From assembly GCF_039233145.1 (NCBI RefSeq), contig NZ_CP136419.1, forward strand, positions 1-64,000: a DNA stretch of 64,000 nt, given 5' to 3'. This DNA comes from Moorella humiferrea. Lineage in GTDB: Bacteria; Bacillota; DSM-521; Neomoorellales; Neomoorellaceae. The stretch's first letter is position 1; the number at the start of each line of letters is the position of its first letter. The position numbers were made by a program, and so were the translations under genes. This document shows, piece after piece, positions 14,265-59,015 of the stretch. The notes below the pieces were generated by a model that did no database searches, was not told the origin of the DNA, and saw only the letters and a program-made list of their open reading frames with translations.

Positions 14265-14529
14265 AATTGATGCCAAAGCGATGAGGGGGAGTGTCGGCAG
14301 CCCACTCCGGTTGGCGAGAGAGCTGGTGGTCGGTGGGAACCAGCCCGGAGGCTGTCGAGAGGCACCCCTGAGTACCCGGCGAGAAATCCCTTGAGGGAAC
14401 AAGTCGGGGCGGTCATGTCCGTTACGCATGCAGAGGGGGCCAGGTATGGTTTTAAACTACCTGGTCAATTAGGGTGGCACCGCGGGTGAAACTCTCGTCC
14501 CTTACAATGGGGACGAGAGTTTTTATTTT
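14265..14529 (+). ncRNA. T-box riboswitch upstream of the serine pathway operon
   Basis: Conserved T-box parts are all present: the Stem I base with a K-turn (GATGAGGGG paired with CCCCTGAGTA), the distal loops (GAGAGAGCTGG, GGTGGGAACCAG), the T-box sequence AGGGTGGCACCGCGGGT (14471-14487), and a terminator (about 14490-14526) of CTCTCGTCCC against GGGACGAGAG followed by Ts. Uncharged tRNA would stabilise the antiterminator and switch on the genes. At the expected specifier position is GGC (14361-14363, Gly), followed by the conserved A. The acceptor-binding bulge UGGC instead predicts a G73 tRNA such as tRNA-Ser. Amino-acid identity is therefore unsettled. Confidence 0.93.
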
Positions 14530-21522: not shown

Positions 21523-21613
21523 GGAGGGGTGTCCGAGCGGTTTAAGGAGCTGGTCTTGAAAACCAGTGATGCTCTTACGGGCACCGTGGGTTCGAATCCC
21601 ACCCCCTCCGCCA
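21523..21613 (+). tRNA. tRNA-Ser (anticodon TGA)
   Basis: Acceptor GGAGGGG pairs with CCCCTCC, with G73 and an encoded CCA. The anticodon loop is CTTGAAA, giving TGA. A long variable arm, GTTCGAATC T-loop and 91-base length are typical of class II tRNA-Ser. It reads UCA and, with wobble, UCG. Confidence 0.97.
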
Positions 21614-21627
21614 ATAGAAAAAAGCGT

Positions 21628-21723
21628 GGAGAGATGGCCGAGTAGGTCGAAGGCGATCGCCTGCTAAGCGATTGTACGGGTCTAAAACCTGTACCGTGGG
21701 TTCGAATCCCACTCTCTCCGCCA
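21628..21723 (+). tRNA. tRNA-Ser (anticodon GCT)
   Basis: Acceptor GGAGAGA pairs with TCTCTCC, with G73 and encoded CCA. The anticodon loop CTGCTAA gives GCT, reading AGC and AGU. The long variable arm and GGTTCGAATCC T-arm mark it as tRNA-Ser. It is 14 bases after the first tRNA-Ser and shares its promoter. Confidence 0.97.
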
Positions 21724-21726
21724 GAA

Positions 21727-21763
21727 AATAAACCGGTGCCAAGGGCTCCGGTTTTATTTTTTT
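21727..21763 (+). terminator. Terminator after the tRNA-Ser pair
   Basis: AAACCGG (21730-21736) pairs with CCGGTTT (21748-21754), with extra GCC/GGC pairing inside, followed by a long T-run. Confidence 0.85.
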
Positions 21764-21765
21764 GC

Positions 21766-21794
21766 TTGCGCTTGAATATAACTTGTTGTATATT
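21766..21794 (+). promoter_or_regulatory. Promoter of the cbiMQO operon
   Basis: TTGCGC (21766-21771) and TATATT (21789-21794) are 17 bases apart. The transcript would start near 21801, immediately before the tandem hairpins, so these are RNA leader elements. Confidence 0.65.
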
Positions 21795-21800
21795 TTTTTT

Positions 21801-21868
21801 AAGGGCAACCATGAAGGTTGCAATATGACCATGGAGGTCATAACGACTCTTCCATGGTTTATTTTTTT
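21801..21868 (+). ncRNA. Tandem-hairpin leader with alternative terminator before cbiMQO
   Basis: Hairpin 1 is GCAACC-ATGAA-GGTTGC (21805-21821). Hairpin 2 is TATGACC-ATGGA-GGTCATA (21824-21842). Both share the core ACC-ATGRA-GGT. A terminator can form instead from ACCATGGA (21828-21835) and TCCATGGT (21851-21858), followed by TTATTTTTTT; it uses the 5' arm and loop of hairpin 2, so the two structures exclude each other. This looks like a transcription-attenuation switch controlling a cobalt/nickel transporter. I do not recognise it as a known riboswitch class. A DNA operator overlapping the palindromes is the alternative. Confidence 0.6.
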
Positions 21869-21926
21869 CTACCCAAATTAATTCCGGGCCCGGTTGTTTA
21901 ATTTAAAATATTAGGAGGTAAAGGTT

Positions 21927-22979
21927 ATGCATATGGCAGATGCTCTCCTTTCACCCGCCGTAGGCGGCACTATGTGGGCGGTTACGGCAGGAGTAGCCGC
22001 CTATTCAATAAAAAAAGTACAGGGGGAATTGGATGAACAAAAGGTGCCTTTGATGGGGGTGCTGGGCGCCTTTGTGTTTGCGGCCCAAATGATTAACTTT
22101 ACCATTCCCGGTACCGGTTCCAGCGGCCACCTGGGCGGAGGACTGCTTCTGGCTATACTCCTGGGCCCTTATGCCGGTTTTTTGACCATGGCTTCCGTAT
22201 TAATCATTCAAGGGCTGTTTTTTGCCGACGGTGGTCTGCTTGCTATGGGATGTAACATATTCAATCTCGGCTTCTATACATGTTTTATTGCCTATCCCTT
22301 GATTTATAAAACTATGGTTCGCAGAGGTTACACGACCCGCCGTATATTTGCCGGCTCATTGCTGGCGGCAATAGTCGGCCTGCAACTCGGTTCATTTAGC
22401 GTCGTCCTGGAAACCCTTCTATCGGGTATTACGAATTTGCCCTTTGGCACATTTGTCATGTTAATGCAGCCCATCCACCTTGCCATCGGTGTGGTAGAAG
22501 GCCTCATCACCGCTGCCGTGGTTACCTACATTTGGAAAACCCGCCCGGAAATATTGGAGAAGGCGGCGACGGGGGAGTTGCTGGGCGGTATTACCATCAA
22601 AAAAGTCCTTACCGTCCTTGCCGTCGCGGCCGTTATAACCGGTGGTGTTTTTTCCTGGTTTGCCTCGACATATCCAGACGGGCTAGAATGGTCCCTGCTT
22701 AATGCTACCGGTAAAGAGGAACTCGAAGCACCAGATGGCGTTCATCAAGCCCTGGCTTACCTTCAGGAAAAAATTGCCTTTTTCCCTGACTACGGTTTTA
22801 AAAATAATGCCGGGGAAGCGGCTGGGGGCGCGCTGGGGGACGAAGGTATGTGGCCGGCTGTAGATGCAGGTACCAGCGTATCGGGACTGGTCGGCGGGGC
22901 AATGACCCTAATTTTGGCAGCAGCAACAGGCCTTATAATAAGAACGGTTAAAAGAGGAAAAGGGCAGAGGTTTGTTTAG
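21927..22979 (+). CDS. cbiM: Cobalt/nickel ECF transporter substrate-binding subunit CbiM with fused CbiN-like domain
   Basis: CbiM is the metal-binding membrane subunit of an energy-coupling-factor transporter for Co2+ or Ni2+. The 350-residue protein begins MHMADALLSPAVGG, where the N-terminal Met-His contributes to metal binding in the family, and has several membrane helices to about residue 210. The C-terminal part contains STYPDGLEWSL, the PDGLE/CbiN-like domain, and a final membrane helix, so CbiN is fused rather than separate. AGGAGGT lies 7 bases before ATG 21927. Cobalt (corrinoids) and nickel (CODH/acetyl-CoA synthase) are both needed by acetogens; the metal cannot be told from sequence. 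Confidence 0.92.
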   Translation: MHMADALLSPAVGGTMWAVTAGVAAYSIKKVQGELDEQKVPLMGVLGAFVFAAQMINFTIPGTGSSGHLGGGLLLAILLGPYAGFLTMASVLIIQGLFFADGGLLAMGCNIFNLGFYTCFIAYPLIYKTMVRRGYTTRRIFAGSLLAAIVGLQLGSFSVVLETLLSGITNLPFGTFVMLMQPIHLAIGVVEGLITAAVVTYIWKTRPEILEKAATGELLGGITIKKVLTVLAVAAVITGGVFSWFASTYPDGLEWSLLNATGKEELEAPDGVHQALAYLQEKIAFFPDYGFKNNAGEAAGGALGDEGMWPAVDAGTSVSGLVGGAMTLILAAATGLIIRTVKRGKGQRFV

Positions 22980-23010
22980 ATTAAAAGCGTAAAAGGGGTT
23001 TTTGATAGCG

Positions 23011-23823
23011 ATGGCCGATCCGGTACCGGCATTTTATAACATAAGATTCCTTGATGAATTGGCAGCAAAAAAATCTATTATCCACAACGTGCATCCCCTT
23101 ATGAAATTATTAACAACAGGCGTTTATCTTTTGGTAACCGTCTCCTTTAATAATTACGATTTAAGCAGTATGCTTCCTCTTATCTTCTATCCCGTTATTA
23201 TTATGGCATTGGCAGATATCCCCGCAGTCCCCATTTTTAAAAGGGTGATTCCTGCTTTGCCTTTTATAATCGGTATAGGTATTTTTAATCCTATATATGA
23301 TAAAACTCCCGTACTGGTACTGCCATGGATTGTCGTTTCGGGGGGCTGGATTTCTTTTTTTTCAATATTGCTTAAAGGCATATTGACAATAACTGCGGCC
23401 CTTATTCTTGTCGCCACTACCGGGATGCCGAAAATCACTTCGGCACTAGGAATAATAAGAATACCCGGCGTGTTTATTACCCAGCTTTTGCTAACGTACA
23501 GGTATATAGCGGTATTGGATGAGGAAGCTGGGAGAATGGTACGCGCCTATTCGTTACGCTCTGCGGGTGAAAAGGGCATCAAATTCAGGGATTGGGGTCC
23601 TTTAACGGGACATTTACTTATCAAGTCCATGGAAAGGGCCCAACGCGTTTACCGTTCGATGTGCTGTCGGGGATTTGCAGGAGAATACCATACCGGTAGA
23701 GAAAAAGGAATTAGCGCCGGCGACCTCCTGTACCTCGCCGGATGGAGTTTAGCTTTTATATTAATTCGCCGGTACAATATTTCGGAGATACTGGGATGGT
23801 TAATGATGGGAGCAAAGAAATAA
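23011..23823 (+). CDS. cbiQ: ECF transporter transmembrane subunit CbiQ
   Basis: CbiQ is the integral membrane coupling subunit of the cobalt/nickel transporter. The 270-residue protein has about five hydrophobic segments and the coupling motifs near MVRAYSLRSAG and ERAQRVYRSMCCRGF, which contact the ATPase. AAAAGGGG lies upstream of both TTG 23002 and ATG 23011; the ATG is preferred but the TTG cannot be excluded. Gene order M-Q-O is standard. Confidence 0.93.
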   Translation: MADPVPAFYNIRFLDELAAKKSIIHNVHPLMKLLTTGVYLLVTVSFNNYDLSSMLPLIFYPVIIMALADIPAVPIFKRVIPALPFIIGIGIFNPIYDKTPVLVLPWIVVSGGWISFFSILLKGILTITAALILVATTGMPKITSALGIIRIPGVFITQLLLTYRYIAVLDEEAGRMVRAYSLRSAGEKGIKFRDWGPLTGHLLIKSMERAQRVYRSMCCRGFAGEYHTGREKGISAGDLLYLAGWSLAFILIRRYNISEILGWLMMGAKK

Positions 23824-24582
23824 ATGAGCCACCATATTATACAAGCGATTAACTTAAAATATAAATATCCCGATGGGCACCAGGCCTTGAACGGAGTTGC
23901 TTTCCGGATTACCCATGGGCAGTCCGTAGCGATTATTGGGGCCAATGGTGCGGGCAAGTCGACTTTGTTGTTGCACCTGGTCGGGGTACTGTTTCCGGAG
24001 GAAGGAGAGATCAGGATAGGTGAAATACCAGTAACCAGGAAAACACTGCCTTTGATTCGACAAAGGGTGGGGATGGTTTTTCAAGACCCGGATGACCAGT
24101 TATTTATGCCTACCGTTTATGATGATGTAGCCTTTGGACCGCGAAATTTAAAATTACCCGAGGAAGAGGTTGAAAAGAGGGTAGTTGCCTCCCTCGACAC
24201 CGTTGGAATTCTACATTTAAAGGATAGACCTCCGTACAAGCTTTCCGGCGGTGAAAAGCGTGCGGCTGCCATCGCCACAGTTCTGGCCATGAACCCTGAT
24301 ATTCTGGTTATGGATGAGCCGACGTCCTCCCTTGATCCGCGCTCAAGGCGCCGTTTAATAATTCTCCTAAAAGGTTTTACCCATACGAAGATAATTGCTA
24401 CCCACGATCTGGACATGGTTTTTGAGCTTTGCGAAAGAACGATTGTTTTGAAGGACGGGAGGATAATGGCTGACGGCCGGACAGAGAAAATTATTAGCGA
24501 TGCCGCATTGATGGAGGAATGTGGGCTGGAGTTACCTCTGGGTTTACTGGGATGTCCGGTTTGCGGCGCAAAAAAAGACTGA
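23824..24582 (+). CDS. cbiO: ECF transporter ATP-binding subunit CbiO
   Basis: CbiO hydrolyses ATP to drive metal uptake. The 252-residue ABC protein has Walker A GANGAGKST, Q-loop VFQDPDDQLFMPTVYDDVAFGP, signature LSGGEKRAAAIA, Walker B ILVMDEPTSSLD and the switch histidine in IIATHDLD. It starts one base after the cbiQ stop. The C-terminus ends CPVCGAKKD, a small CxxC motif possibly binding metal. A single CbiO would act as a homodimer. Confidence 0.95.
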   Translation: MSHHIIQAINLKYKYPDGHQALNGVAFRITHGQSVAIIGANGAGKSTLLLHLVGVLFPEEGEIRIGEIPVTRKTLPLIRQRVGMVFQDPDDQLFMPTVYDDVAFGPRNLKLPEEEVEKRVVASLDTVGILHLKDRPPYKLSGGEKRAAAIATVLAMNPDILVMDEPTSSLDPRSRRRLIILLKGFTHTKIIATHDLDMVFELCERTIVLKDGRIMADGRTEKIISDAALMEECGLELPLGLLGCPVCGAKKD

Positions 24583-25642: not shown

Positions 25643-25916
25643 TGACCGTGCTAGACGGGGAGGTAGCGGTGCCCTGTAACCCGCAAACCGCTATAGCGGG
25701 GTCGAAGTCCCACTGGCGGGCCTGACCTGTGGGGTCCGGCTGGTGTAAGGGGCGAAGATAACCGGGTCCTGCGCGACGAGGACTCATGAACCCCGTCAGG
25801 TCCGGGAGGAAGCAGCGGTAAGTGAGCCCCCTCGGGTGCCGCGGGAGTGCCTGGTTGGAGTTACCTGCACCGGTAACGCCCGGAGGCCATGTTCAACAGT
25901 GGGTGCACGGTCACCT
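25643..25916 (+). ncRNA. ffs: Signal recognition particle RNA, large (Bacillus-type)
   Basis: The ends TGACCGTGC (25643-25651) and GCACGGTCA (25905-25913) pair. The 5' part (GGGGAGGTAGCGGTGCCCTGTAACCC) shows the Alu domain, and GTCAGGTCCGGGAGGAAGCAG (about 25795-25815, read in part) is the conserved Ffh-binding loop. At about 270 bases it is the long Gram-positive form with Alu and S domains. It lies before dnaX, as in Bacillus. Confidence 0.96.
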
Positions 25917-32761: not shown

Positions 32762-32852
32762 GAAAACCGCAAAAGGCGAACCTGACCGAAAGGCAGGGGC
32801 GCAAAGCCACGGGCCTAAAACCTTAACAGGTCATGGCAGCCGGGTTGCCGGG
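32762..32852 (+). ncRNA. c-di-GMP-I (GEMM-I) riboswitch 1
   Basis: The aptamer hallmarks are present: AAAGGCGAACC, the CCGAAAGG tetraloop, GGGGCGCAAAGCCACGGGCC, CTAAAACC and GGCAGCCGGGTTGCC. Its segment CCGGGTTGCC (32840-32849) can pair with GGCAACTCCGG (32883-32893), the 5' arm of the downstream terminator. With ligand bound, the terminator would form, so an OFF switch is predicted for the secreted-protein gene at 32945. Confidence 0.93.
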
Positions 32853-58919: not shown

Positions 58920-59015
58920 TTAAAGTGTTTAAGGGCAAACCACTCGAAAGGGTGGGACGCAAAGCCATGGGTCTGTAGCCACTATGTTGGTATGACTGCC
59001 AGGCTGCCACTTTAA
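58920..59015 (+). ncRNA. c-di-GMP-I (GEMM-I) riboswitch 2
   Basis: P1 is TTAAAGTG (58920-58927) paired with CACTTTAA (59008-59015). Inside are AGGGCAAACC, the CTCGAAAGGG tetraloop, GGGACGCAAAGCCATGGGTC and the second-arm AGGCTGCC. The segment AGGCTGCC (59001-59008) can pair with GGCAGCC (59058-59064), the 5' arm of the terminator just upstream of the HD-GYP gene. Ligand binding should favour the terminator, so c-di-GMP is predicted to turn the downstream genes off. Confidence 0.9.

Follow-up and report, generated by a model that had tools for sequence, protein, structure and literature searches.

A conserved hairpin leader as a probable attenuator of nickel and cobalt uptake genes in Moorella humiferrea and related bacteria

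Described leader RNAs and the leader of cbiMQO

Bacterial nickel control is usually ascribed to DNA-binding proteins (NikR, RcnR). Control of nickel/cobalt transporters from within a leader is found in the NiCo (czcD) riboswitch, a larger, multi-helix RNA, while the guanidine-II (mini-ykkC) riboswitch, with its ACGR tetraloops and guanidine genes, offers an example of tandem small hairpins with purine-rich loops closed by C-G. ANTAR-target RNAs (EutV, NasR and AmiR leaders) also combine a pair of small hairpins with conserved loops, in this case six-nucleotide loops with an A1/G4 signature, and binding of the regulator results in read-through. ANTAR antitermination requires both hairpins, separated by a linker of 5–12 nt, with the second hairpin overlapping the 5′ arm of the terminator (PMC3369931).

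Here we describe a leader in a 64,000-nt stretch of Moorella humiferrea DNA (henceforth the window) which shares features with each of these RNAs. Like the ANTAR-target RNAs it has two small hairpins, the second of which overlaps a terminator; unlike them it is linked to a nickel regulon and has five-nucleotide loops (AUGAA and AUGGA, i.e., A-N-G-R-A). The loop length and the Ni/Co genes also set it apart from guanidine-II. Finally, its small hairpins stand over importers, whereas the NiCo riboswitch activates exporters when metal is abundant (PMC7266159). The features of the leader and of the operon under it are as follows (all on the + strand):

21766–21794, +: putative promoter (−35 TTGCGC at 21766–21771, 17-nt spacer, −10 TATATT at 21789–21794), from sequence reading
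21772, +: alternative −35 of this promoter, TTGAAT, from sequence reading
21805–21821, +: hairpin P1, GCAACC (21805–21810), loop AUGAA (21811–21815), GGUUGC (21816–21821), from reading, folding, homologues and covariation
21824–21842, +: hairpin P2 (putative antiterminator), UAUGACC (21824–21830), loop AUGGA (21831–21835), GGUCAUA (21836–21842), from reading, folding and covariation
21828–21868, +: intrinsic terminator, ACCAUGGA (21828–21835) and UCCAUGGU (21851–21858) with a U-run to 21868, from reading, folding and covariation
21913–21918, +: Shine-Dalgarno sequence AGGAGG of the operon's first gene, from sequence reading
21927–22979, +: CbiM/NikM-type substrate-specific permease with a PDGLE (CbiN-like) domain (Pfam CbiM 1.6e-60, PDGLE 2e-30)
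23002–23823, +: CbiQ, ECF T component (NCBIfam TIGR02454, 1.5e-38, above cut-off)
23824–24582, +: CbiO, ECF ATPase (Pfam ABC_tran 5.8e-32; NCBIfam ECF/cbiO models)

A preliminary description of this DNA had placed tandem hairpins at 21801–21868, upstream of cobalt/nickel uptake genes; the hairpins read exactly as described, and Pfam and NCBIfam identify the genes as CbiM (a PDGLE fusion), CbiQ and CbiO. The terminator 5′ arm consists of the 5′ arm plus loop of P2, so that bases 21828–21835 are common to both structures, precisely as had been claimed, and the linker between P1 and P2 is 2 nt. Without the terminator 3′ arm the leader folds into P1 and P2 (−17.6 kcal/mol, z −5.1); at full length it forms P1 and the terminator instead (−25.8 kcal/mol, z −4.8). 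Scanning the window for the loop with a stem of at least 5 and an overlapping terminator returned one site on the + strand and none on the − strand; 60 first-order Markov simulations of 64 kb each gave none. A promoter at 21766–21794 with a transcript start near 21801 is plausible from the sequence; a consensus promoter scan made no call there.

Directly 5′ of the leader, at 21523–21720, are two tRNA genes with long variable arms, which apparently end in their own terminator (~21731–21765) just ahead of the leader promoter. Other RNAs in the window are a T-box (14272–14505), the large SRP RNA (25646–25910) and two c-di-GMP-I riboswitches (32765–32852 and 58925–59012).

In agreement with the earlier view that the leader belongs to no known riboswitch class, Rfam searches at gathering thresholds and at E ≤ 10 gave only chance-level matches in the window leader. 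Guanidine-II was without a match at either setting, the NiCo riboswitch was likewise without a match, and the cobalamin riboswitch had none within 21730–21960; elements of 20 further loci also had no Rfam match.

Distribution, covariation and regulon of the element

To define the family we combined a pattern scan with covariance models. The pattern (two ACCATGRAGGT cores, one genome per species, terminator not part of the pattern) yielded some 30 genuine relatives. Almost all belong to Desulfosporosinus, where a single genome often has many; the others are in Moorella sulfitireducens, a Clostridiaceae MAG and UBA4049. The terminator was present in nearly all of them, with L080 as the clear exception; the stem of L039 has one mismatch. 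Most other matches, being CATGAAGGT-containing tandem repeats or His-rich coding repeats, were set aside. A covariance model of P1 and P2 (R1) added copies in other Moorella and in other families; its weak matches at L094, L097–L100 and L102–L104 lacked a terminator and were discarded as chance. A second model, of P2 and the terminator (R2), matches the window at 21823–21868 (E = 7.5e-6, this sequence being among those from which R2 was built). Among 398 genomes of the same phylum, 128 were matched at E ≤ 0.02, where chance alone would give about 8, and 62, from 21 families, were matched at E ≤ 1e-4, some genomes having as many as 12 copies; E-values for both models are rough, coming from shortened calibrations, and some matched sequences were also used in model building. 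In Desulfosporosinus, loci L132–L151 are dense islands in which many element copies cluster around recurring genes for Ni importers, methyltransferases, FmdE and CooT.

The preliminary description had proposed an undescribed RNA element before Ni/Co genes, a view that would fall if conservation and covariation were missing beyond this strain; both were decisively found. Across relatives P1 was 96% paired with two-sided changes in 5 of 6 pairs, P2 98% paired with two-sided changes in 3 of 5 pairs, and the terminator 97% paired with two-sided changes in 4 of 8 pairs; as the scan for relatives selected paired stems, the percentages are inflated, and the variety of pair types less so. The covariation score of P1 was 0.82; shuffling brought it to 0.24, and slid pairings scored no more than 0.15. 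Its stems are diverse around one loop type (e.g., GCAACC/GGUUGC, CCUGGC/GCCAGG, GGUAUC/GAUACC, ACAUACC/GGUAUGU). The A-N-G-R-A loop and its closing C-G pair are kept while the stems and the terminator covary. Among 137 distinct elements the P2 loops were AUGGA (89), AUGAA (24), ACGGA (14), ACGAA (9) and AAGAA (1), the A-N-G-R-A form having been demanded by the scan. P1 was present in 46 of these elements (0.4 expected after shuffling) and missing from the other 91, and P1–P2 linkers were bimodal, at 1–5 or 25–46 nt. The mutual exclusion of P2 and the downstream terminator, also claimed earlier, is borne out by the shared bases, by the folds and by covariation, the last of which maintains it across the family as in an attenuation leader. 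We found no description of the element in the open-access literature searched. The family, whose members stand before nickel-acquisition genes in many anaerobic bacteria, is large and appears to be previously undescribed.

The host genome carries two further copies, one (1923373–1923405, − strand) before FmdE and a BtuF/FecCD-type importer, and another (1957458–1957513, − strand), with P1 CCUGGC-AGGUA-GCCAGG, before a ZnuA-like importer. At about position 1775300 of contig C1 (L188), DUF3842-cooT is preceded by a related leader whose loops are expanded. Such DUF3842-cooT leaders in Moorella and relatives (L188, L193, L208) have loops AGCGGA, AUCGGA and ACGAGGA in place of pentaloops; the hexaloops among them obey the ANTAR A1/G4 rule and could possibly link the two RNA families.

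Across the family, the genes in first or second position below the element are most often those of CbiM/NikM-Q-O (gene identities from Pfam/NCBIfam). Other importers are of BtuF/FecCD type, ZnuA type and NikA-like SBP_bac_5 type, and further genes encode DUF4198 (known from other systems as NikK-like), FmdE, SAM-dependent methyltransferases, CooT, DUF3842, TrmO with a CooC-like ATPase, LarE-LarB-LarC, CobN-like chelatases, a CsoR-type repressor and, once, an [FeFe]-hydrogenase. LarC, CooC, CooT and NikA point to nickel as the metal of the regulon, with cobalt possible because of CbiM and CobN. Taken together, we consider it very probable that the leader is an RNA attenuator of a Ni/Co regulon.

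Three loci deserve separate mention. In G188 a tandem element stands over the [FeFe]-hydrogenase gene (L161:2311–4266, − strand), which suggests a nickel-free enzyme for nickel scarcity; switching it on alongside importers is in keeping with a response to scarcity. In G198 (L211) the intergenic stretch before cooT holds two leaders, an element directly before the gene and, just 5′ of this element, a cobalamin riboswitch (190–369). Finally, in G317 a single protein of 275 aa (L291:9259–10083) joins a CooT domain with a DUF4198 domain and is encoded between FmdE and an element-controlled cbiM; similarly long CooT open frames occur in other genomes of family f16.

Mechanism and identity of the regulator

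P2 is the sole structure that competes with the terminator, and the terminator 3′ arm pairs with the conserved P2 loop, where invasion can start; a molecule bound to the loop would therefore favour read-through. We propose that the nascent RNA folds P1 and P2 first and that, by default, the downstream strand would invade P2 via its loop, forming the terminator and leaving cbiMQO off. Under metal scarcity, a trans-acting regulator on the A-N-G-R-A loop(s) would block invasion and permit read-through, the same logic as in ANTAR-target RNAs; when metal is sufficient, it would release the RNA. Since importers are needed at metal scarcity, direct binding of Ni2+ or Co2+ would have the wrong sign (stabilised P2 means importers on), which favours a trans-acting RNA-binding regulator, and we infer that scarcity is its activating state. 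Judged from sequence, this model of an attenuator with a trans-acting regulator active at metal scarcity is on balance the reading we prefer. The loop binder itself is probably a protein: single hairpins are frequent, the conserved sequence is short and the linkers vary, all of which resembles protein sites.

The earlier suggestion that the RNA itself is a metal sensor is not supported, given the same wrong sign together with the many single-hairpin members and widely varying linkers. A riboswitch could still be envisaged in which a small ligand, bound directly by the P1 and P2 loops, keeps P2 from giving way to the terminator; the ligand might be a metabolite that reports a demand for metal, or the metal itself acting by some unexpected logic. 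The compactness of the tandem hairpins, their near-invariant loop and a guanidine-II-like architecture would suit such a reading, as would the elements in G019, which lacks CooT and DUF3842, and the finding that none of the tested proteins occurs in all carriers. Its appeal is reduced by the prevalence of single small hairpins (91 of 137 elements), by bimodal and variable linkers, by the small number of conserved nucleotides (only about 7) and by the sign of the response to Ni2+/Co2+, and we regard it as possible but rather unlikely.

Much less probable is that an ANTAR protein binds both hairpins and blocks the terminator, as in the eut, nas and ami leaders. The overlap of two hairpins and a terminator is alike, an ANTAR domain is encoded in 24 of 26 carriers, including the host genome, and the expanded loops AGCGGA and AUCGGA of the DUF3842-cooT leaders agree with the A1/G4 hexaloop; but the loops here have five nucleotides with G at position 3, and neither the need for both hairpins nor the 5–12-nt linker is kept. 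G188 and G386 (99% complete) carry elements without any ANTAR domain, and ANTAR as universal regulator was therefore rejected. We give slightly less credence still, i.e., very little, to a DNA operator, in which the palindromes would be the site of a metal-responsive repressor around the start of transcription, with the terminator there by coincidence. Both hairpins are indeed perfect DNA palindromes near the putative start, and a CsoR/RcnR-type repressor is encoded among some targets. Yet the stems of P1 are replaced entirely with their pairing preserved, covariation ties the terminator to P2 although a DNA site has no need of it, and NikR is absent from the host genome.

Returning to a trans-acting protein, the distribution of two families suggests a protein sensor. 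At E ≤ 1e-4, CooT is encoded in 58 of 62 element genomes (118 of 398, or 30%, overall) and DUF3842 in 60 of 62 (180 of 398, or 45%, overall), in counts that span 21 families and ignore shared ancestry; where DUF3842 occurs without CooT, the element is found in only 2 of 69 genomes. Elements also stand directly before cooT or before DUF3842-cooT, i.e., members of the CooT family both co-occur with the element and lie under it. CooT of R. rubrum, a dimer that binds a single Ni with a Kd of 9 nM, has been described as an accessory protein for CODH whose function is unclear (PMC6006190).

CooT and/or DUF3842 may be the regulator or part of its sensing pathway, and we put forward the two proteins as leading but tentative candidates for the loop binder; both could instead simply be regulated members of the regulon. 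Neither is strictly required: G019, G090, G409 and G410 carry the element without CooT, and G019 (99% complete, 6 R2 matches) also lacks DUF3842. The G019 elements inspected precede the same kinds of genes as elsewhere. An RNA-regulatory role of CooT was not found in the literature searched, and a fold search returned only CooT entries as clear matches (6fan, 5n76, 6y8v), without a clear RNA-binding relative; weaker matches (ATP synthase epsilon, RimM) were uninformative. A single-sequence structure prediction for DUF3842 reached a pLDDT of 36. More speculatively, nickel-free CooT, alone or with DUF3842, might act as an RNA-binding antiterminator on A-N-G-R-A hairpins, turning on at least 12 nickel-acquisition operons including its own.

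If CooT were such an antiterminator, this nickel regulon would be controlled at the RNA level. A family of antiterminator hairpins over genes for nickel import, nickel chaperones and nickel cofactors would explain how nickel uptake is matched to need in acetogens, sulfate reducers and their relatives, and it offers a testable role for two orphan families, CooT and DUF3842. The element also provides a handle on unknown nickel/cobalt genes, such as the FmdE, methyltransferase and CobN-like genes that share it.
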